The translations under genes and the position numbers were made by a program. The notes beneath the pieces were generated by a model. It was not told the DNA's origin. It searched no databases and was given only the letters and a program-made list of their open reading frames with translations. DNA of 64,000 nucleotides from Bacteroidales bacterium (lineage in GTDB: Bacteria; Bacteroidota; Bacteroidia; Bacteroidales; P3). Shown here piece by piece: positions 21,049-33,721 of this stretch (positions within the stretch are counted from its first letter, which is position 1; each line of letters opens with the position of its first letter). The stretch covers positions 124,001 to 188,000 of the forward strand of contig JAEEZY010000015.1 in the NCBI GenBank assembly GCA_016292015.1, read 5' to 3'.

Positions 21049-21843
21049 ATGCATATGAAATACTATTACCCATTTGGCGAAGAACTAAAACCTGTAGTAC
21101 AGCAAGACAGAACACCCAAAAAAGTGTTTGTGTTGGGGGTGTATGCTAGTGCGGTACATGCTCGTTGGACGAAACCAGGGCAACGAAGACCTGTTTGTAC
21201 AGCGTTGGCTGTAGCCAGTGAACCTCGTATCTTCTGGGATGGAAACCCTGTGGAGGCATCCGAGATTATTAATAGAATCAATTTCCCGAAGGAACTGGGG
21301 ATACTTGAGCCTGCAGATCCGAAATTTAATGGGCCATCAGCAAAAGTCCTTGATAATCACATATTGGCTCCATTAGGGTTTTCTAGAAAAGATGCGTGGC
21401 TTTGCGATTTGTTGCCTGAGACAAGGCTTAATAAAGGTCAATTAGATGCGATTGAAAGAGAGTATATGCCTGTAATGAAGAAATACAGCTTGAATAAAGT
21501 TACGATTCCCAACCGTCCTTCAAAATTCTGTGATAGTGAGCGTTGTAAAGAGATTGTTGCAGAGTTGGATGAGTCGAAAGCAGAACTGCTAATTTTGCTT
21601 GGTGATATTCCCATCAAACAATTTCTCAATGCGGTTACAGGAGTGGATTATAAATCGTTGTTGGAGTATAAGAATCGCTATGGCTATGGATCTCCAACAG
21701 AGGCCGTAATTAATGGAAAGATCTATAAGATTCTGCCAATAGCACATCCTCGGCAGATAGGAGGACTAGGCTCTCATAGTAGTGGTTGGTGCGATGAGCA
21801 TCATAAGTGGGAAGTCAACCTTTTAAGAAAGGCGACGATATAA
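21049..21843 (+). CDS. Uracil-DNA-glycosylase-superfamily-like protein
   Basis: A 264-residue protein without a signal peptide; two ATGs (21049, 21055) are possible. The order of elements resembles the UDG fold: an N-terminal strand and motif-1 position (VFVLGVYASAVHARW), a middle ELLILLGDIPIKQFL like the LLLGKHA strand of UDGs, and a C-terminal ILPIAHPRQIGG in the place of the HPSP motif. Motif 1 lacks the usual polar catalytic residue, so activity may differ. A/T-rich codons, long structured upstream DNA and flanking repeats suggest acquisition. Function and defence role are not proven. Confidence 0.5.
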   Translation: MHMKYYYPFGEELKPVVQQDRTPKKVFVLGVYASAVHARWTKPGQRRPVCTALAVASEPRIFWDGNPVEASEIINRINFPKELGILEPADPKFNGPSAKVLDNHILAPLGFSRKDAWLCDLLPETRLNKGQLDAIEREYMPVMKKYSLNKVTIPNRPSKFCDSERCKEIVAELDESKAELLILLGDIPIKQFLNAVTGVDYKSLLEYKNRYGYGSPTEAVINGKIYKILPIAHPRQIGGLGSHSSGWCDEHHKWEVNLLRKATI

Positions 21844-21872: not shown

Positions 21873-21908
21873 CTCCCCCTTTCCTTTAAGAGAGGGGCAG
21901 GGGAGAGG
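21873..21908. repeat. CTCCCC...GGGGAG hairpin repeat, copy 2
   Basis: The pattern CTCCCCCT..CCTTTAAGAGAGGGGCAGGGG is in the same orientation as copy 1 at 20233-20270 and lies 30 bases after the stop of the glycosylase-like gene. Confidence 0.6.
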
Positions 21909-21910
21909 CT

Positions 21911-21950
21911 TATTATTCGTAAACCGCAATCCCCTCGTCGTACCTTTGCA
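21911..21950 (+). promoter_or_regulatory. Right copy of the outward-facing 40-bp inverted repeat with a -7 box
   Basis: TTATTCGTAAACCGCAAT, ten bases, then TACCTTTGCA. It mirrors the copy at 20151-20190. It points to the right into the 3' end of the convergent WYL gene, so as a promoter it would produce only antisense RNA. It may therefore be an element end or a relic of a displaced promoter. Confidence 0.55.
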
Positions 21951-21965
21951 CCCGAAATCAATCGC

Positions 21966-22877
21966 TCAGCTTTCCTCGTACAGCGAGGCCATATTCTGCA
22001 GAGTCGCTTTGATTTGAGTTCTTAGAAATTTTGGCTTGAGGATTTCGATTCTGTTGTCGTAAGTCAGCAGCTCGTGTATAAAATCCGGCGTGGGACGAAG
22101 ATAAAGGCGGAAAACACTGTACTCATCGGTGGTCGTGATCTCTTCCTGACTTGTGTGCAAAGGCAGCGAACGCAGATATTTGGCCGAGACGTTGTTAACC
22201 TTGAGCTCTATGATTTGCGGCGAGATTTTGGTGTCAAGGAAAACACCGAAGAAACTGCCGAAGAAGTCGGTCGGGTTGAAGTCGTCCGGAAGTTCGAATG
22301 TGTCGGCTTGTAGCTTGAAGTCCGACATCCTGTCGAGGGCGTAAATCTTGCATCCCTCGAGCGTATGCCCACCATAGAGGTACCACCGCCGTTTGTACAT
22401 CTTCAGGCATACCGGCATAAAGTCCTTGTAATGCAGTTCGTCTTGTTTTTGGAAACGGGTGTATAGGAAGCTGACTTTGTGGTTTTGCTGTATGGCTTGT
22501 AGGCATAGAGTGAGGTTCGGCTCCGACGACGGAATTTCCTCAAGTATTATCCGGTCGCGGATTTTGTCGTTCTCCGAAAGCAGGTTGTTGAGCGAGATCG
22601 ACTCGAGCAGCCATTTCCTGAACGAAGCCGTGTTGAGAATCGATTGGCGGTCCTCAATGAAATATCGGTACGTCTCCAAGTGGCATCCAATTTTGATATG
22701 GAAAATCTCCTCTATGTCGCGGCGGTGGTTGTGGAACGTGCGTATATTGTAGTTTCCCCCGCCCGAGATAAAGTCGGATTTCGTATATTTGTCCCGAATC
22801 TCGTCAAACGTGAAACCCTCACTACCTGCATGCGAAAGCGTGTCTATCAGCCAGATATACTTGTTTAGGATATTCAT
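21966..22877 (-). CDS. WYL-domain transcriptional regulator
   Basis: The start at ATG 22877 (MNILNKYIWLIDTL) is preferred because the -7 box of its promoter lies at 22899-22906; this gives 303 residues. The N-terminal winged helix (about 1-70, DEIRDKY...YNIRTFHNHRRDIEEIF) is followed by a WYL domain (about 130-215) with VSFLYTRF and KRRWYLYGGH, and a C-terminal WCX-type extension (FRLYLRPTPDFIHELL). WYL proteins sense ligands and are frequent regulators of anti-phage operons (CapW, BrxR). It is divergent from the nuclease gene, with overlapping promoters, so it probably represses that gene and itself. Confidence 0.85.
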   Translation of the reverse strand: MNILNKYIWLIDTLSHAGSEGFTFDEIRDKYTKSDFISGGGNYNIRTFHNHRRDIEEIFHIKIGCHLETYRYFIEDRQSILNTASFRKWLLESISLNNLLSENDKIRDRIILEEIPSSEPNLTLCLQAIQQNHKVSFLYTRFQKQDELHYKDFMPVCLKMYKRRWYLYGGHTLEGCKIYALDRMSDFKLQADTFELPDDFNPTDFFGSFFGVFLDTKISPQIIELKVNNVSAKYLRSLPLHTSQEEITTTDEYSVFRLYLRPTPDFIHELLTYDNRIEILKPKFLRTQIKATLQNMASLYEES

Positions 22878-22898
22878 GATAATGAGTTTTCTACTTTG

Positions 22899-22956
22899 CA
22901 AAAATAATATTTTTCTATGGTGTGAAACAAATTTGCGCACCCCATGTGTATCTTTG
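22899..22956. promoter_or_regulatory. Divergent promoter/operator between WYL regulator and nuclease gene
   Basis: The minus-strand -7 box TATTTTTG (22899-22906) faces the WYL gene, and the plus-strand TATCTTTG (22949-22956) faces the nuclease gene. Between them an imperfect inverted repeat ATGG-TGTG ... CGCACCCCAT (22917-22945) is a candidate operator covering both core promoters. Confidence 0.5.
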
Positions 22957-23009
22957 CAAAAAATTCAAAACCGATAATCAAAAAAATAACCACTTTAAAT
23001 ACATGTATT

Positions 23010-24773
23010 ATGAGACAATTAAAACAAAATCTTCTGAAAAGACTGACTAAAGAGCTTAGCGGTTTACTTGAGTGTATTAAAAATGATGGCGAATTAGACC
23101 TACAAATACGAGATAATTACATCAACGTCTATTACAAAGGAGGAAACATCTTAGAAATAAGACCACGAAGCTTCCATTTTGACGAGATGTATTTCAATGA
23201 TTATAACGTCAAAAGAAGTACTGAGGCAAAAAAAGACAAGGGTCTAGTTGCTCAGTTTAGGGAGAAAAGAGATCGGATGTTAAAGCTTCTTCCGGATAAC
23301 CCTCAAAAATATTTCAGCGAAGCAAAATCAATAATGGATAAGTGGGACAATTCGTTGAAGGATGTAATGCAACATAACGAAAAGAAAGAGCAACAGCTTA
23401 TATCTTTGGTTAATAGGAAAGACTCTGACTATATTGTATTGGATGTCGAATACTCTGTTAGTCGCAATTCGGATTTTTCATACAATGGAAGTAAAGGTAA
23501 AAAAGTTCCCCGTTTCGACATCATTGCCATTCATGATGAGGAATTAGTTGTCATTGAACTAAAAAAAGGTCTTGGCGCGACACCCGGGAAGTCCGGCATT
23601 GGACCACATATTGATTGTTTTGATAATACTATAGGTAGAGATAAAAAACGTCTTTTTGTAACAGAAATGCGTGAGCTTCTTAAACAAAAACAAGAACTCA
23701 AATTGTTGGACAAATCATTGAAGATAAAAGATTGTGAGCCGTCTTTTGTTTTTGCATTTGCTGACGAAAACGGCAAGGATGAATTTAATTCTTTTGCTTC
23801 AAAATGTTTTTTCCAAAAGTTTAAGGGTGATTTGCTTTACCTGAATGGTGACCACAAGCTAAGACGAGCAATGAAACGGGACTTTTATTTCACGGAAAGG
23901 AAGAAACAGTTCAAGTATATGCGTAAATATGATTTTGGAGAAATGAAATATGTGTTATGGGATTATGATTGTATCAACAATCTTTACTCAAAGATTCAAG
24001 AGGATGCCATAGAATATTTTAAACGGTACGATATTGCTTGGTGGCAATGTAAAGGCGAGAACAATATCCCATCTGGACATATAGTTTCTTCTCAAATTCA
24101 TTGTCTCAACCATCTGTTTGATATCCGCACAGATAAGGATGCGGTGAAACTTATCGCAGAAAAGGCAACAAGTATGCAGTTTGACGAGATATTGCCATCT
24201 CTCATTGACAACAAAGAGAAAAATTCATATATCACGTTTGAGTTTGCATTGGATAACGATAAGCTGCTCGGAGAAAATGATAAGGGAAGGAAAAGGGGTA
24301 CGTTGTGTACGTCTATTGACGTGATGATTATGGCTCGGAAAGGGGATAGAAAATGGCTAATTCCGATTGAATGGAAATACACTGAAAGTTACAAAAGGGA
24401 AGATAAGACAAATGAAACACGCGAGTCAAGGTATTCAAAATTAATAGAAACCTCGAAAAGACTCAGAATGCCAGAAGATGGCATCCCTCATTCCGTCTAT
24501 TTCATAGAGCCAAACTACGAGCTGATGCGTCAAACTCTCTTGTGCGAGCAGCTGGTGGCAAACGGCTATGCTGACGATTTCTTCCACATAAATGTGATTC
24601 CAGCTGGCAACACAGAGTTGAGAAATGCCGTGGAAAAGGAGTTTATTCCTATGCTTAAAGACGATTCAAAATTCAAAATCATCGACCCTCAAGACCTTCT
24701 CTCTCCGCTCGAGGAAAACAATCTGCACCCAGAACTGATAGAATACCTCAAGAAAAGGTATTGGTACAGATAA
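23010..24773 (+). CDS. Large protein with two PD-(D/E)XK nuclease-like cores
   Basis: A 587-residue protein starting at ATG 23010, since the -7 box at 22949 lies inside the longer open frame. Residues 1-120 form a helical N-domain with a YINVYYKGGNILEI strand. A first nuclease-like core has Glu147, Asp170 (VPRFDIIAI) and Glu183-Lys185 (VIELKKG). A second core has Glu411 (ITFEFAL), Asp437 (SIDVMIMA) and Glu454-Lys456 (IPIEWKY). The second part resembles the PGN_0703-like putative endonuclease family of Porphyromonas. The gene is clearly more A/T-rich than its neighbours. With the divergent WYL regulator it looks like a defence or restriction effector; no methylase is nearby. Confidence 0.7.
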   Translation: MRQLKQNLLKRLTKELSGLLECIKNDGELDLQIRDNYINVYYKGGNILEIRPRSFHFDEMYFNDYNVKRSTEAKKDKGLVAQFREKRDRMLKLLPDNPQKYFSEAKSIMDKWDNSLKDVMQHNEKKEQQLISLVNRKDSDYIVLDVEYSVSRNSDFSYNGSKGKKVPRFDIIAIHDEELVVIELKKGLGATPGKSGIGPHIDCFDNTIGRDKKRLFVTEMRELLKQKQELKLLDKSLKIKDCEPSFVFAFADENGKDEFNSFASKCFFQKFKGDLLYLNGDHKLRRAMKRDFYFTERKKQFKYMRKYDFGEMKYVLWDYDCINNLYSKIQEDAIEYFKRYDIAWWQCKGENNIPSGHIVSSQIHCLNHLFDIRTDKDAVKLIAEKATSMQFDEILPSLIDNKEKNSYITFEFALDNDKLLGENDKGRKRGTLCTSIDVMIMARKGDRKWLIPIEWKYTESYKREDKTNETRESRYSKLIETSKRLRMPEDGIPHSVYFIEPNYELMRQTLLCEQLVANGYADDFFHINVIPAGNTELRNAVEKEFIPMLKDDSKFKIIDPQDLLSPLEENNLHPELIEYLKKRYWYR

Positions 24774-24851
24774 ACTCTGTACCTCAGTCAGTGCTAATGT
24801 GCGTTTGAGAAAGTTAAATTATAGGTTATTTCGACATTAGGTTAGGATTTT

Positions 24852-26045
24852 ATGACTGAACAGGATTATAGAGAATATTTGGAAAAACGCACATTTGATG
24901 TGCCTACTGGCTGGATGGCCGATTTGGTTGCCTCGCCCGACTGGCGGCATCGGTGGTTCGCAGCAAGGATGCGCTGCGGTTTGAATCGACTTGCGTCCGA
25001 TTCCTCCGCCGATGTGCGGATGGAGGTCGCTTGGCAGAAATTCAGATTGGACGAATTGTCCAAAGACCCCGACCCTCGAGTCTGCTGGGCCGCAAAGAGG
25101 TGCGAGGCGATGAGCTGGGAGGATGTGTATGATAGATACACAACCTTCGAGATGGATTATGAGGGGTTGCTCGAGTTGTTGAATAACGTCCATATCGAGG
25201 GACTTGTAAGTCCCGACGAACGCAATCGTGCGTTCAAGCGGTTGTTCGACGAAGGTTGGCCGCTCGATGGGGGTAACATGCGCATTTGGATAGAAAAAAC
25301 CTGTTGCCCGGAATTGGTTTGTGCGACGCTGAAACGGGAAAAGTGCAACTTGGACAGAACTCTGATCCTGACTTCTCATAACAGAAACGGACGGGAAATA
25401 AGGGGTGTGGTTGCGGAGCAACTCGGTTTAGAACGGAGTGAGATCACATCCTCAACCCCTGAAGATCTCAGCGTTATGCTGCTGCGCAAATATGCCGACA
25501 AGGTCGGATTGAACCCGCTGTTCACCATAGTGGAGGACTCTGCCGACGATGACGAAGTGTGCAGAAAAGACCTTATCGACAGTGCGTTCGCATTGATGCT
25601 TGATCATCGTGATGCGATGGGAGATGCAAATTCTTTGTTCGACTGGATCATCGATGAGGAGGGAAGCGCCTTTTGGACGGGTGGCGTAAGGGTATGCGAT
25701 ATGCTGTATTACTACAAAAACACCGACGAAACAAAGCGGCGATGGCAGATAAAAAGCAACTGCTGGATGTCGCAATGGCGTGACCGTATTGACGAAATCT
25801 ACGGTAGCGACAACGAGCAGGAACGTTTATGTTTTGAATCCGTATTTGGCGAATATTGGAACTATAGGAAAGCTGCCAACGCATACAAAAACAGATGGTG
25901 GATAACGGAAGCCTTGGATGCAATAGTCTCTTGGGAGCCGGAGTTGGCCGACGCGCCGAGAAGCCAGCAGTTCGAGATCGCCAAATACGCGGTGGAACGG
26001 ATAAGGAAAAACAAATTGGACAATATGTTTGACATAGAATTATGA
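24852..26045 (+). CDS. Unknown protein with HEAT-like N-terminal repeats
   Basis: A 397-residue protein without a signal peptide. The first 90 residues contain two degenerate HEAT/variant leucine-rich repeats of the pattern LASDSSADVRMEVAW and LSKDPDPRVCWAAKR. The remainder is Trp- and acid-rich and I do not recognise it. The stop overlaps the start of the metallophosphoesterase gene by 4 bases (ATGA-type coupling), so both are made from one message. Base composition is closer to the core genome than that of the nuclease gene. Confidence 0.6.
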   Translation: MTEQDYREYLEKRTFDVPTGWMADLVASPDWRHRWFAARMRCGLNRLASDSSADVRMEVAWQKFRLDELSKDPDPRVCWAAKRCEAMSWEDVYDRYTTFEMDYEGLLELLNNVHIEGLVSPDERNRAFKRLFDEGWPLDGGNMRIWIEKTCCPELVCATLKREKCNLDRTLILTSHNRNGREIRGVVAEQLGLERSEITSSTPEDLSVMLLRKYADKVGLNPLFTIVEDSADDDEVCRKDLIDSAFALMLDHRDAMGDANSLFDWIIDEEGSAFWTGGVRVCDMLYYYKNTDETKRRWQIKSNCWMSQWRDRIDEIYGSDNEQERLCFESVFGEYWNYRKAANAYKNRWWITEALDAIVSWEPELADAPRSQQFEIAKYAVERIRKNKLDNMFDIEL

Positions 26046-26647
26046 AGATTATTCACATATCCGACACTCATGGCAAGCACCGCGAACTTAACGCCCTGCC
26101 CGACGGCGATGTGCTGGTACACAGCGGCGACTTCTCATTCGCTGGCAGCGACAACGAGGCGTTGGATTTTCTCAGTTGGCTCTGCGACCAACCGCACAAG
26201 CATAAAATCTTCGTCGCCGGGAATCATGATGTCGCGATGTGGGACGCAAAAATCGAAGGCCTTCCCGATAACGTGCACGTTCTCTCGGACAGCAGCGTTC
26301 TCATCGATGGCAAACTCTTCTACGGTGCTCCAATGCAGATGGGAGTTAAGAACGGCAAACTTATGGCCGTCGCGCAATACCATCTGATTTCCCGAGGCGT
26401 TGACGTCCTGATAACCCACCAGCCGCCTATGGGCATTCTTGACCTCGACGGCGCTGGTCGCCATTTTGGAAGTACAAAACTGCTCGAGAGAGTGACGGAG
26501 TTGAAACCTAAGTTTCACCTCTTCGGTCATGTTCATGATGCTTATGGGACAAATGTGTGGAAGGATATAACCTTCGTCAACGGGAGCGTGGTGAACGACA
26601 AATATTCACTGATGCTAAATCGACCACTGCAAGTGGTAGAAATTTAA
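26042..26647 (+). CDS. Calcineurin-like metallophosphoesterase
   Basis: A compact 201-residue phosphoesterase with the five metal-binding blocks in order: DTHGK, GDFSFAG, GNHD, THQPP and GHVHD. The family hydrolyses phosphodiesters or phosphomonoesters with two metal ions; the substrate is unknown. It is translationally coupled to the HEAT-like protein gene and lies 102 bases before dnaE, which has its own upstream region. Confidence 0.88.
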   Translation: MKIIHISDTHGKHRELNALPDGDVLVHSGDFSFAGSDNEALDFLSWLCDQPHKHKIFVAGNHDVAMWDAKIEGLPDNVHVLSDSSVLIDGKLFYGAPMQMGVKNGKLMAVAQYHLISRGVDVLITHQPPMGILDLDGAGRHFGSTKLLERVTELKPKFHLFGHVHDAYGTNVWKDITFVNGSVVNDKYSLMLNRPLQVVEI

Positions 26648-26749
26648 CGTGTTAGGATTGCTGACAATCTGTGAATAACTTAGCGTCGCACAATCATTTT
26701 TTTTAATTTATCTTTACAACCTCAAATCATCAAATAAAGTAAGCACACT

Positions 26750-29700
26750 ATGCCGTATTTCACTCATTTACACGTTCACTCCCATTACTCGATTTTGGAC
26801 GGTATGTCCAAAATACCCGACCTTATCAAGAAATGTAAGGCTAACGGGATGTATGCTATGGCTCTCACCGACCATGGCAACATGTTTGGCATCAAGGACC
26901 TGGTGGACACTGTGAACAAGGAGAACGGCAAGGTGAAGGACAAGATTAAAGAGCAGGAGGCCATACTGCAGAACGACGGCGCCAGCGCCGAGGAGAAGCA
27001 GGAGGCGGAGGCGAAGATGGAGCTGCTGAAAGAGCAGATATTCAAGCCGATACTGGGGATTGAGACCTACTGCGCCCGCCGCACCCTCTATGACCACGAC
27101 AAGAACGTGACGGAAGTGAGCGCAGAGAACGGCAAGGTGCGTATAGTCGATAGGAGCGGATGGCACTTGATCCTGCTGGCAAAGAACAAGCAGGGCTACA
27201 AGAACCTCTGCAAGCTGAGCTCGATAGCCTATATGGACGGCTTCTACGGCACTCCGAGGGTCGACCACAACGTGCTGGAACAATACCACGAGGGCATCAT
27301 CTGCTGCTCGGCGTGTCTGGGCGGCGAGGTGCCGCAGAAGATACTGGCGGGTGACCTGGAAGGGGCTGAACAGAGCATGCTGTGGTTCAAGAACCTCTAC
27401 GGCGACGACTACTACCTCGAGCTGCAACGCCACAAGACCGACAAGCAGGGCGCCGCCACCGACACCTACGAGAAGCAGGTGAAGGTGAACAAGGTGCTGA
27501 TTGAGCTGGCGCGCAAGCACAACATCAAGATTGTGGCAACCAACGACGTGCACTTCGTGGAGGAGTCGCACGGCGACGCTCACGACCACCTGATTTGCAT
27601 CAGCACACAGTCGGATTTCAACGACCCGAACCGCATGCGATACACCAAGCAGGAGTGGCTGAAGAGCCCTGAGGAGATGGCTGCCATCTTCGACGATCTG
27701 CCGGAGGCGTTGGAGAACACGCGCGAGGTGGTGGACAAGGTGGAGGTCTACAGCATCGACTCTGACCCGCTGATGCCTATGTTCGACATACCTGAGAGCT
27801 TCGGCACCGAGGCCCAATGGCGCGAACGCTTCACGGAGGAGGACATCTTCAACGAGTTCACCCAGAACGAGAAACACGAGGTGGTGATGTCGCAGGAGGC
27901 GGCGGAGAAGAAGATAAAGAAGCTGGGCGGCTACGAGAAGCTGTACCGCATCAAGTTTGAGGCCGACTATCTGGAGAAGCTGGTGTGGGAGGGCGCCAGG
28001 ATGCGCTATCTGCCGGAAAAAACCGAACTGACGGAGCTGGAGGATATAAAAGCCGCCCTCACCGAGGAGATTCGCGAGCGCATAGTGTTTGAGCTGCACA
28101 CCATCAAGACGATGGGTTTCCCGGGTTACTTCCTTATCGTGAGCGACTACATAAGGGCTGCGCGGGAAGAACTGGGTGTGAGTGTGGGACCCGGGCGTGG
28201 AAGCGCGGCTGGCAGCGTGGTGGCCTACTGTCTGAAGATCACGGACGTAGATCCGCTGAAATACGACCTCCTGTTTGAGCGTTTCCTCAATCCCGACCGT
28301 ATCTCGCTGCCCGATATCGACGTGGACTTCGACGACGCGGGTCGTGGTAAGGTGCTGGATTGGATTACCGAGAAATACGGCAAGGAGAAGGTGGCTCATA
28401 TCATCACCTACGGCAAGATGGCCACTAAGTCGGTGATAGCCGACGTGGGACGCGTAGAGGGGGTGCCGCTGGACACGGTGAATCGCATCAAGGGCTATAT
28501 CCCTGACAAGTTCCCCGACGGCATGAAGGACGCAAGCGGTAAGGTGCTGGAGAAGGCTCCCAAGGTGAACCTGGAAAACTGCTACAAGTACGTGCCGGAG
28601 CTGAAGGCAATAATGGAAGGCACCTCCAACCCGATGGACAACGAGCTGAAGTCGATGTTGGAATATGCTGAAGAGCTGGAGGACACCAACCGTCAGATAG
28701 GCATCCACGCCTGCGGCGTCATCATCGGTGCCGACGACCTCACCAAGTTCGCCCCCATCTGCACCATCAAAGACAAGGACACGGGGCAGGATGTGGTGGT
28801 GACCCAGTATGACGGACATGTGGTGGAGAACGTGGGACTCATCAAGATGGACTTCCTTGGGTTGAAAAACCTCACCATCATAAAGGACGCGCTCGCCAAC
28901 ATCAAACGGCGTCACGGGGTGGATATCGACATCGACCACATCCCCATCGACGACCAGAAGACCTACGAGCTCTTCTGCGAGGGCAACACGGTGGGCACCT
29001 TCCAGTTCGAGTCGCCGGGAATGCAGAAATACCTGCGCGAGCTGGAACCGCATGTGTTCGAGGACCTCATCGCAATGAACGCGCTTTACCGCCCGGGCCC
29101 GATGGATTACATACCCGACTTCATCGACCGCAAGCAGGGCCGCAAGCCTATCACATACGACATACCTTGCATGGAGCAATACCTGAAGGACACCTACGGC
29201 ATCACGGTGTATCAAGAGCAGGTCATGCTCCTGAGCCGCCAGCTGGCAGGTTTCACACGCGGTCAGAGCGACACCCTACGCAAAGCGATGGGAAAGAAGC
29301 AGATTGAGAAAATGAACGAGCTGGAGCAACTCTTCTACGAGGGTGGAGAGAAGAACGGTCACCCGCACGAAGTGCTGCACAAGATTTGGGAAGATTGGAA
29401 GAAGTTTGCTGAATATGCTTTTAACAAGTCCCACGCCACCTGTTACTCGTGGGTGGCCTACCAGACGGCTTATCTCAAAGCCAACTACCCGGCCGAATAT
29501 ATGGCTGCGGTGCTGACCAGCGGTCAGGACGACATCTCACGAACCACCCAGATAATAGAGGACTGCCGCAAGCACGGGATAGATGTGTTGTTGCCGTCGG
29601 TGAACGAGAGCGAGAAGAACTTCGCGGTAAACGCCAACGGCCAGATACGTTTCGGCTTGCAAGCCATCTCGGGCATGGGCGAGGCCGCCGCCGAGGTAAT

Positions 29701-30688
29701 CATAAAGGAGCGCGAGGAGAACGGCCCTTACAAGGACATATACGACTTCCTGGCACGTGTGGACCTCCACACTGTCAACCGCAAGAACATAGAGGTGCTG
29801 GTGAAGGCGGGCGCCTTCGACGGCTTGGGCGAGATGCACAGGGCGCAGTATTTCTTCAAGGAGGTGGACAACGACAGCTGTCCGACCTATCTGGAGAAGC
29901 TGGTACGCTGGGCGGTGAGGAACCAAGAGAACGCCGACTCGTCGCAGATGTCGATATTCGACATGTCTGACGAGATAAAAGAAGAACAGCATCCTGACGC
30001 ACCCAAATGCGAGCCGTGGAGCACCATTGAGCAGTGCCGCAACGAGAAGGAGGTGATCGGCTTCTACCTCAGCGCCCACCCGCTCGACGAATTCAAATAC
30101 GAGATGGCTACCTTTGTCAACACCCCTGTGACTGCTCTCAACGAGTATGAAAAGATAAAGCTGTCGCCCATCAAGTTCGGCGGCATGGTGGCGGACGTGA
30201 AGACGGGTATCTCCCATAAGAACGGCAATCCCTACGGCCGTATGGTGATTGAGGACTACTCGGGCACTTACGAGATAATGCTGTGGGGCGAGACCTACCA
30301 GCGGCTGAAGAACTACTTCGAGAAGGGGCTTTTCGTCTATTGCACCGCTGCGGTGAAGATACCGAGGTGGAAAAACAAGGACGGCTCGTTCAAGGAGTCG
30401 CCTCCAAAGTTGGAGGTGTCGGATATCATGCTTTTAGGAGATGTGATGAGTCGGTATGCACGTGGAATCAGCATTTCGGTGCCGCTGACAGCCATCGACA
30501 AGGATTTCTGCACATCGATGTCCAATATGCTTAAGTCGAGCAAGGGCTCAATCCCACTCAAGGTGTTCGTGACATATAACGACATGTCGCTTACCATGAT
30601 GGCCCGCGACCACAAGGTTGATGCCAAGAAGTTCCTGAAGTCTATCGGAGAGATGGACTCTGTGTATAATGTCAAAATCGAAAGCTGA
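26750..30688 (+). CDS. dnaE: DNA polymerase III alpha subunit
   Basis: A 1312-residue replicative polymerase. The N-terminal PHP domain (FTHLHVHSHYSILDG) contains a charged helical insertion (about 61-105, VKDKIKEQEAILQN) absent from shorter family members. The catalytic palm has GPGRGSAAGS and the aspartates Asp522/Asp524/Asp526 in LPDIDVDFDD. Helix-hairpin-helix and OB-fold (FGGMVADVKTG) modules come at the end. It is longer than the E. coli enzyme (1160), as is usual in Bacteroidota. The stop overlaps the next start by one base (TGATG). Confidence 0.97.
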   Translation: MPYFTHLHVHSHYSILDGMSKIPDLIKKCKANGMYAMALTDHGNMFGIKDLVDTVNKENGKVKDKIKEQEAILQNDGASAEEKQEAEAKMELLKEQIFKPILGIETYCARRTLYDHDKNVTEVSAENGKVRIVDRSGWHLILLAKNKQGYKNLCKLSSIAYMDGFYGTPRVDHNVLEQYHEGIICCSACLGGEVPQKILAGDLEGAEQSMLWFKNLYGDDYYLELQRHKTDKQGAATDTYEKQVKVNKVLIELARKHNIKIVATNDVHFVEESHGDAHDHLICISTQSDFNDPNRMRYTKQEWLKSPEEMAAIFDDLPEALENTREVVDKVEVYSIDSDPLMPMFDIPESFGTEAQWRERFTEEDIFNEFTQNEKHEVVMSQEAAEKKIKKLGGYEKLYRIKFEADYLEKLVWEGARMRYLPEKTELTELEDIKAALTEEIRERIVFELHTIKTMGFPGYFLIVSDYIRAAREELGVSVGPGRGSAAGSVVAYCLKITDVDPLKYDLLFERFLNPDRISLPDIDVDFDDAGRGKVLDWITEKYGKEKVAHIITYGKMATKSVIADVGRVEGVPLDTVNRIKGYIPDKFPDGMKDASGKVLEKAPKVNLENCYKYVPELKAIMEGTSNPMDNELKSMLEYAEELEDTNRQIGIHACGVIIGADDLTKFAPICTIKDKDTGQDVVVTQYDGHVVENVGLIKMDFLGLKNLTIIKDALANIKRRHGVDIDIDHIPIDDQKTYELFCEGNTVGTFQFESPGMQKYLRELEPHVFEDLIAMNALYRPGPMDYIPDFIDRKQGRKPITYDIPCMEQYLKDTYGITVYQEQVMLLSRQLAGFTRGQSDTLRKAMGKKQIEKMNELEQLFYEGGEKNGHPHEVLHKIWEDWKKFAEYAFNKSHATCYSWVAYQTAYLKANYPAEYMAAVLTSGQDDISRTTQIIEDCRKHGIDVLLPSVNESEKNFAVNANGQIRFGLQAISGMGEAAAEVIIKEREENGPYKDIYDFLARVDLHTVNRKNIEVLVKAGAFDGLGEMHRAQYFFKEVDNDSCPTYLEKLVRWAVRNQENADSSQMSIFDMSDEIKEEQHPDAPKCEPWSTIEQCRNEKEVIGFYLSAHPLDEFKYEMATFVNTPVTALNEYEKIKLSPIKFGGMVADVKTGISHKNGNPYGRMVIEDYSGTYEIMLWGETYQRLKNYFEKGLFVYCTAAVKIPRWKNKDGSFKESPPKLEVSDIMLLGDVMSRYARGISISVPLTAIDKDFCTSMSNMLKSSKGSIPLKVFVTYNDMSLTMMARDHKVDAKKFLKSIGEMDSVYNVKIES

Positions 30689-31611
30689 TGGCAATAGAGC
30701 TGCAGACAAAGGTATCGGTCGCGCCGACGGATTTGAAGATAACCCACGAAAGCCGGCTGCTGCTTATGGGCAGCTGCTTCAGCGATGCAATGGGGGAGAG
30801 GATGCGTAATTGCGGATTCAATGTGCTGTTGAATCCCTTTGGGACGCTGTACAACCCGTTGTCTATAGCAGAGTGTATAAGGCGTACCGCTGGGCAGGTT
30901 GATATGACCGCTGACGACGTGGTGTTCCACAACGGTTTGTGGCATTCATGGCTCCATCACGGACGCTTCTCGAGCCATGACCGCAACCTGCTGTTGGCCG
31001 ACTGTACCGACAGTATGCACAAGTTGCACCTGTTCATGAAGCAACCGATGACGGTTGTGTTTACCTTCGGCACAGCGTATGTGTTCCGACACGGTGGTCG
31101 TGTGGTGAGTAATTGTCACAAGCTGCCTGCGTCGCTTTTTGAGCGAACAAGGCTGAATGTGGATGAAATAGTTGAGGTGTGGCATCCGATGTTGCGTGAA
31201 TTTGCTTCGTGCGGGCATAATGTTGTCTTCACCGTCAGCCCTATAAGGCACATGGCCAACGGTGCACACGGCAACCAGGTGAGCAAGGCTACCCTGCTGC
31301 TGGCGGTGGAAAGACTATGTGAAGAGGGATGGGCCGAGTATTTCCCCGCCTACGAGATTGTGCTCGACGAACTGCGCGACTACCGCTTCTACGCCGACGA
31401 TATGACTCATCCGTCGCAGTTGGCCGAAGAGATTGTGTGGCAACGCTTCCAGGAGACCTACATGAGCTCGGAGACAATAGAGCGTAGCGCGAAATACCAG
31501 AAGCTGAGCCGAATGAAAAAACACCGTCCACTGCATACCGACTCGGCGGAATATGAGCAATACATGAAGAAACTGGCTGAACTGGAAGAAGCTGTAAAGG
31601 TTAATGGTTAA
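30688..31611 (+). CDS. GSCFA-domain protein
   Basis: A 307-residue protein of the GSCFA family, named for the motif LLMGSCFSDAMGERM near its N-terminus. The remaining blocks (NPFGTLYNP, FTFGTAYVF, FTVSPIRH and DDMTHPSQLAEEIVW) fit an SGNH/GDSL-like hydrolase with Ser in GSCFS and Asp/His in DMTH. The activity is not established; esterase is likely. It is coupled to dnaE through a TGATG junction. Confidence 0.88.
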   Translation: MAIELQTKVSVAPTDLKITHESRLLLMGSCFSDAMGERMRNCGFNVLLNPFGTLYNPLSIAECIRRTAGQVDMTADDVVFHNGLWHSWLHHGRFSSHDRNLLLADCTDSMHKLHLFMKQPMTVVFTFGTAYVFRHGGRVVSNCHKLPASLFERTRLNVDEIVEVWHPMLREFASCGHNVVFTVSPIRHMANGAHGNQVSKATLLLAVERLCEEGWAEYFPAYEIVLDELRDYRFYADDMTHPSQLAEEIVWQRFQETYMSSETIERSAKYQKLSRMKKHRPLHTDSAEYEQYMKKLAELEEAVKVNG

Positions 31612-33650: not shown

Positions 33651-33721
33651 GGTCGTTTGGCCGAGGGGCTAGGCACAGGTCTGCAAAACCTGCTACTCCG
33701 GTTCAAATCCGGAAGCGACCT
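33651..33721 (+). tRNA. tRNA-Cys (GCA anticodon)
   Basis: A full cloverleaf: acceptor GGTCGTT/AGCGACC, anticodon stem CAGGT/ACCTG around CTGCAAA (anticodon GCA), and a T-arm with GTTCAAATC. The discriminator base is T, as expected for tRNA-Cys. CCA is not encoded. Confidence 0.95.

Follow-up and report, generated by a model that had tools for sequence, protein, structure and literature searches.

WYL repressors of the CapW and BrxR type are reported to control the CBASS and BREX systems (PMC9122601, PMC9122589); CapW, the WYL-WCX repressor of CBASS, is described as binding promoter palindromes, with expression raised by phage infection (PMC9122588). In the published account of ARG-centred systems, WYL or Nudix regulators are listed together with a rapidly evolving novel REase family and calcineurin-like phosphatases (Iyer et al., 2022; PMC9503650). 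Here we describe a locus with likenesses to both, found in a 64,000-nucleotide stretch of a Bacteroidales contig (JAEEZY010000015.1; the whole stretch is referred to as the window). A gene for a WYL-WCX regulator lies divergent from a gene for a 587-residue dual nuclease, which is followed by G4, a gene without an assigned function, and by a metallophosphoesterase (MPE) gene. We read these genes, with moderate confidence, as a Bacteroidales nuclease operon that is inducible and modular and whose most likely role is anti-phage. What seems to be new, as judged from sequence comparison, is that the N-terminal nuclease has been replaced inside otherwise matching orthologous loci.

The C-terminal half of the dual nuclease belongs to the Pfam family REase-ARP, an entry that, to judge from its name, derives from the description of the ARG-centred systems (PMC9503650). 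This domain, the WYL regulator and the calcineurin-like phosphatase are common to those systems and the window. The difference is that REase-ARP is here fused to, or found beside, exchangeable N-terminal nucleases. The Pfam matches of the four module proteins include no ARPP; no search aimed at ARPP was made. With the CapW and BrxR repressors the locus shares the WYL-WCX architecture, the control of an adjacent operon and a palindrome near the promoter, here a candidate repeat. CapW-type control logic is likely at this promoter by analogy. The locus differs from those systems in that the module proteins contain no BREX family and no CBASS cyclase (CD-NTase) family by Pfam and PADLOC, and the putative DNA-binding domain of the regulator matches no family model here. 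A methylase family of restriction-modification types I–III was likewise absent from the Pfam matches of the four proteins, in agreement with the preliminary description of the locus, which had proposed a unit without a methylase.

Shedu SduA, Hachiman HamA, Can2/Card1 and Upx are also counted among the closest known systems. SduA has no Pfam match in the window protein, and one relative of the N-terminal module reaches 13.9 bits, under the cut-off of 27. For Gabija, the nuclease has no GajA match, and G4 matches GajB with only 13 bits over 73 residues. The MPE corresponds to the PADLOC candidate PDC-S10 (238 bits, 1.3e-71), the difference being that it is here the last gene of a WYL and nuclease operon. 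It carries the metallophosphoesterase motifs DTH, GD, GNHD and GHVH, and its nearest solved sequence is MPPED2. The Lhr-MPE-Exo-ligase repair cluster also combines an MPE with a nuclease; sibling operons resemble it in having an MPE and an MBL nuclease, and the difference is that no Lhr or ligase family occurs in the four module proteins. No PADLOC model matches the dual nuclease. The earlier label 'undescribed' is not supported for its C-terminal nuclease, which is a named Pfam family. In the open-licence PMC literature we found no paper naming PDC-S10 or REase-ARP, and the label PGN_0703 used in the preliminary description was not traceable there; absence from that literature is weak evidence.

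The dual nuclease and its exchanged N-terminal module

The AlphaFold model of the nuclease (pLDDT 91.7) is consistent with two PD-(D/E)XK domains. The C-terminal core matches REase-ARP (PF22558) with 143.7 bits and also PDDEXK_13 (PF20796) with 52.4 bits, the cut-off being 27 in each case. No Pfam family exceeds its cut-off in the N-terminal core, where the best match is Hjc (13.8 bits vs. 21.1). Across 68 aligned homologues, residues E147, D170, E183 and K185 of the N-terminal core and D437, E454 and K456 of the C-terminal core are invariant. By fold, the N-terminal half aligns to solved nucleases that include the NucS/EndoMS type and the C-terminal half to solved restriction nucleases; we take the aligned enzymes to be PD-(D/E)XK nucleases. 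A Foldseek search with the two-domain model gave no match at E ≤0.001, and the nuclease profile found no match among PDB sequences at E 1. The model, the invariant motif residues and the fold alignments support the prediction that both halves are PD-(D/E)XK nuclease domains, as had been suggested from the letters of the sequence.

The gene order WYL, nuclease, G4, MPE, dnaE is conserved in two congeners, G092 (locus L020) and G053 (locus L021), whose regulators are 85 and 81% identical to that of the window and have the same layout. The window and L020 match at 82.9% of DNA positions over 21940–22987 and at 85.9% over 23871–31586, with no match over the N-terminal module (N-module). The match with L021 is 84.3% up to 22969 and 82.7% from 24069 on, the N-module again being unmatched. 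At this site L020 has a 240-amino-acid open reading frame (ORF) and a DUF6946 ORF, both unrelated to the window N-module and each with a motif that can be read by eye as (D/E)XK. L021 has a separate, distant N-type ORF (31% by protein) ahead of a separate REase-ARP gene; this N gene begins in leader sequence common with that of the window, despite other ORFs before it in L021. On these alignments, the N-module is exchanged while the regulator, the C-terminal REase-ARP, G4 and the MPE stay.

Exchange was also compared among 104 homologues of more than 560 residues, taken from the best 120 of 385. The identities of the N- and C-modules are nearly uncorrelated in this set (r=0.165, 5356 pairs), and swaps are seen in both directions. 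P0056 and P0077, whose contigs measure 242 and 288 kb, are 98% identical in N and 49% in C, and P0012–P0017 are 95–96% identical to P0115 in C and 14–16% in N. The fronts of the best 120 homologues of 385 comprise 97 of N type, 14 of another, unnamed type, one HAD_SAK_2, two unassigned (one of them a 98-amino-acid stretch resembling a remnant of N) and six that are nearly absent. A HAD_SAK_2 gene is found beside REase-ARP in L032 (called by Pfam) and in L038 and L050 (called by profile), paralleling the fusion in P0087.

Limits, composition and promoter of the operon

The features of the locus are collected in Table 1. The regulator and the 587-residue ORF are where they had been placed and are divergent, as expected of an inducible effector, and Pfam confirms the WYL (2.1e-10) and WCX (2.5e-7) domains above cut-off. 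The mechanical ORF starts, GTG 22940 for the regulator and ATG 22944 for the nuclease, are nearly in contact. Homologues favour ATG 22877 for the regulator (303 amino acids; the L020 and L021 orthologues likewise start MNILNKY) and ATG 23010 for the nuclease (587 amino acids; M1 and R2 nearly invariant), and these starts give the short common promoter region that had been proposed, at 132 bp. The description of the nuclease gene as A/T-rich also stands, its GC content being 0.34–0.43 in 500-base steps vs. 0.53–0.60 in the flanking peptidase and dnaE genes; G4 lies above it (0.49–0.52, same steps). The nuclease is single-copy in the window genome.

Table 1. Features of the locus in the window, with DnaE-core ORFs of sibling loci.
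Feature	Position	Strand	Basis
WYL-WCX transcription regulator, 303 amino acids	21966..22877	-	Pfam WYL and WCX over cut-off; divergent from nuclease
Divergent promoter region, 132 bp	22878..23009		Candidate elements only
N-terminal PD-(D/E)XK module (predicted), residues 1–300, exchanged part	23010..23909	+	Invariant residues; fold matches 126–286; replaced in L020/L021
C-terminal REase-ARP PD-(D/E)XK module (predicted), residues 301–587	23910..24773	+	PF22558, 1.1e-41; invariant residues; fold matches 290–575
G4, 397 amino acids, function not assigned, weak UvrD-like stretch 156–300	24852..26045	+	
Metallophosphoesterase (MPE), 201 amino acids	26042..26647	+	Pfam Metallophos; PADLOC PDC-S10
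Whole variable unit, approximate limits	21895..26748		DNA comparison with L020, L021 and six dnaE regions without the unit (L097–L102)
DnaE-core ORFs	L074:5604-7229, L082:5073-6710, L084:6066-7688, L030:5842-7479, L076:5291-6733, L027:9982-11424, L081:9843-11273		

The preliminary description took the regulator and nuclease as a two-gene unit between housekeeping genes. A peptidase gene and dnaE do flank the region, with dnaE starting at 26750, directly downstream of the unit. The next two genes downstream of the nuclease are nevertheless part of the module, and the two-gene claim is not supported, since G4 and the MPE are present or absent at this site together with the pair. G4 is found in 3 of 120 genomes of the genus, exactly those with this locus; the MPE, which overlaps G4 by 4 bp, is found in 22 of them. 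The module genes are upstream of dnaE in none of the six other congeners examined, including G026, whose dnaE is 92–95% identical; absence was judged from the dnaE side, for 6 out of 56 genomes in which dnaE was matched. Comparison with L020, L021 and these six regions places the limits of the unit at about 21.9–26.75 kb. As far as DNA comparison goes, then, the WYL regulator, dual nuclease, G4 and MPE are one block, present or absent together.

The dnaE side was taken because the empty site could not be demonstrated from the upstream 286-amino-acid gene: the contig of G110 ends there, and in G026 this gene and dnaE are on separate contigs. About 21 kb separate the same gene from the WYL locus in G092 (L094:2279-19501), a stretch with an 821-amino-acid ORF that is DUF262/GmrSD-like by eye. 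An ORF resembling the uracil-DNA-glycosylase superfamily (21049–21843; Pfam UDG 18.8 bits, under the cut-off of 24.3) is convergent with the WYL gene. It has no DNA match at the copy of this site in G053 and was counted outside the unit. No tRNA adjoins the module, tRNA-Cys at 33651 being the sole tRNA in 12–36 kb.

G4 occupies the position held by an MBL nuclease in sibling operons. Its match to Pfam UvrD is 22.7 bits, just below the cut-off of 23, and it has three homologues in a set of 5.8 billion proteins. We claim no fold for G4 because of these weak profile matches, the three homologues and an AlphaFold pLDDT of 49.1.

Residues 1–115 of the regulator match no helix-turn-helix or other Pfam family at E 1; the winged helix was assigned by eye. 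Among solved structures its matches are WYL proteins (E 0.003–0.01), some of which we take to be DriD. The Bacteroidetes -7 consensus is TAnnTTTG, and a -7-like box, TATCTTTG in three of four aligned loci and TATATTTG in the fourth, is a candidate promoter element. The imperfect inverted repeat GGTGTG-N11-CGCACC at 22919–22941 is a candidate operator, of which L020 and L021 carry versions with base changes; it is not statistically special, and a more perfect A/T-rich repeat outscores it in the same scan.

Relatives among Bacteroidales

Of 393 genomes surveyed in the order, 30 have a match to REase-ARP and 23 to the N-module; some of the REase-ARP matches are weak, and one has ten internal stops. 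Neighbourhoods were tested in 27 genomes, made up of 19 of these 30 and eight from the genus and family; 11 weaker genomes were left out, the weak G372 was kept, and G079, one of the eight, had been found via its MPE and WYL genes. A WYL gene (Pfam model) is within 6 kb of the nuclease in 8 of the 27, against an expectation of about 0.2, given 45 WYL hits over some 80 Mb. After dropping G079 and G372, which were chosen with WYL already seen, the count is 6 of 25. These cases belong to a small number of lineages and are not independent of one another. A profile search of six of the 11 genomes left out found no WYL gene within 6 kb.

The MPE occurs at 23 places in the 22 genomes of the genus that have it, and 22 places were compared, the weak G064 being left out. 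A WYL gene is within 6 kb at 16 of these loci (19 within 8 kb). An MBL gene directly precedes the MPE at 14, and several loci have no MBL. The N-module or REase-ARP is found by profile at 13 loci, and a further five (L073, L078, L080, L082, L084) have an ORF that looks like PD-(D/E)XK by eye only; L083 (at a contig end), L085 and L087 have no nuclease in this slot, and L079 is doubtful. Control loci of 7–19 kb around dnaE or the 286-amino-acid gene had the profiled genes in none of ten cases. The MBL, which is RNase J-like, is within 6 kb in 22 of 33 N-module loci, many of which had been located through N, and the N-module is present in 6 of the 11 MBL loci found by the MPE alone.

Individual loci vary in order. 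L072 has a WYL protein 51% identical to that of the window and a REase-ARP gene with the MPE directly after it; our own REase-ARP profile missed this REase-ARP gene, which Pfam finds at 80 bits. In L035, from another family, the order is WYL, REase-ARP, an 83-amino-acid ORF, MBL, MPE. The N and REase-ARP genes of L034 (5970-12808) are flanked by HsdM and HsdS, with the gene for an AAA_13 ATPase coming next, and an N6-methylase/Eco57I-type ORF adjoins REase-ARP in L045. Adjacency to dnaE was not seen in sibling loci.

Profile-profile comparison of the slot nucleases (36 pairs from nine sets) did not join them into one family. The sets containing P0103 and P0101 overlap in family, and the C-module matches the linkers of those sets. 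Apart from these, the best matches are three. The L073/L084 family matches L072 at E 1e-4 over 43 columns outside the core. In the core only, the N-module matches the P0101-containing set at 6e-4 and the L078-type family at 4e-3. A phage search found no relative, a plasmid search found one distant REase-ARP match only (27% identical), and a viral search gave no confirmed match.

Seven loci of the genus contain ORFs of 476–545 amino acids that match DnaE from about residue 401 to residue 946 (Table 1). The aspartates of PDIDVDF and KMDFLGL, which we take to be catalytic in DnaE, are wholly or partly changed in six of the seven and unchanged in L081. When 59 genomes of the genus were searched with DnaE residues 1–600, the only matches in frames of less than 600 amino acids (G011, G082, G090) fell in WYL-MPE loci. 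It is possible that the sibling DnaE fragments act as a decoy or poison. A separate 117-amino-acid DnaE-like piece lies directly 3′ of an interrupted REase-ARP gene in a member of the Paludibacteraceae (L019:2341-2694).

Near the WYL gene of three sibling operons are ORFs of 166–191 amino acids that are mutually similar by eye (L074:7385-7927, L078:5833-6408, L079:8948-9448); the L074 copy has no Pfam or PADLOC match. In L087 (6643-14539) an MPE is found near a YADD-motif ORF (reverse-transcriptase-like by eye), an ORF that is DnaB-like by eye and a WYL-like gene.

Proposed function and alternatives

If the operon is anti-phage, the WYL dimer would repress its own promoter and be released once it binds nucleic acids produced by infection or by DNA damage. 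Either nuclease domain, or both, would then cut the invading DNA or all DNA, and the exchangeable N-domain may set the target or escape phage inhibitors. The MPE may trim nucleic-acid ends or destroy the inducing nucleotide, turning the response off, and G4 would be an adaptor. The WYL and nuclease pair recurs, and neither outcome that the preliminary description named as refuting it, a pair never conserved together or the lack of a nuclease fold, came about. Two observations on relatives point the other way. No WYL gene lies closer than 6 kb at 26 of the 34 REase-ARP loci, and the four WYL relatives L088–L091 (48–50% identity) have no profiled gene alongside.

A DNA-damage repair or processing operon is an unlikely competitor. 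The WYL protein would sense single-stranded DNA in the manner of DriD and PafBC, and the nucleases, the MPE and the MBL of siblings would process broken DNA or stalled forks. The presumed DriD structures among the regulator's matches, the NucS/EndoMS-type alignment of the N-domain, the likeness of MPE plus MBL to the Lhr-MPE-Exo-ligase cluster and the neighbouring dnaE are all in its favour. DNA-damage responses are reported to be activated by some WYL proteins that bind single-stranded DNA (PMC12340889, PMC11804915). The sibling loci, however, are not next to dnaE, and Lhr and ligase families are missing from the four module proteins. Defence fits better than housekeeping repair because of the patchy distribution (3 of 120 congeners), the presence or absence of the genes as a block, the module exchange and the company of restriction genes in L034 and L045, which are atypical of repair genes.

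It is improbable that the locus is a variant of the counter-ADP-ribosylation systems centred on ARG, with REase-ARP as a second-line effector. The novel REase family, WYL regulators and calcineurin-like phosphatases listed for those systems would suit such a variant (PMC9503650), but an ARG gene (PF03747) is present in 8 of the 27 genomes and near REase-ARP in none, that of the window genome being on another contig. Judged by that defining gene, the window operon therefore falls outside the ARG systems, and this explanation is already weakened, though the C-domain remains a member of the REase-ARP family. We give similarly little credence to a selfish nuclease cassette, in which the N-module would be a homing-type or toxin cassette moving between hosts, silenced by the WYL protein and of no benefit to the cell. 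The N-module does move as a unit, with the L021 gene starting in the common leader, and it is widespread without REase-ARP, as the survey counts indicate. Against this, a stable partner is usual, an MBL gene being near 22 of the 33 N-modules, many of which had been located through N, and the phage and plasmid searches returned nothing closer than the one distant REase-ARP match.

More tentatively than the anti-phage reading of the window operon itself, we suggest a combinatorial defence family of Bacteroidales. A constant frame of WYL regulator and phosphoesterase would be combined with swapped PD-(D/E)XK modules, as genes or half-genes, and with G4 or an RNase J-like nuclease. In some siblings a DnaE core stripped of catalytic aspartates would be added and would act on replication, of phage or host, as a decoy or poison, and the window protein would be a recombinant of two fused nucleases.

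If the operon serves in defence, it would be a case of nuclease effectors swapped where two domains meet while the regulator stays constant. A change of target would then be readable from sequence and could be tested by comparing natural variants. The PADLOC candidate PDC-S10 would gain an operon context, and the REase-ARP family would extend beyond the ARG systems. The idea of a replicase decoy would become testable through the altered DnaE fragments that sibling operons carry.

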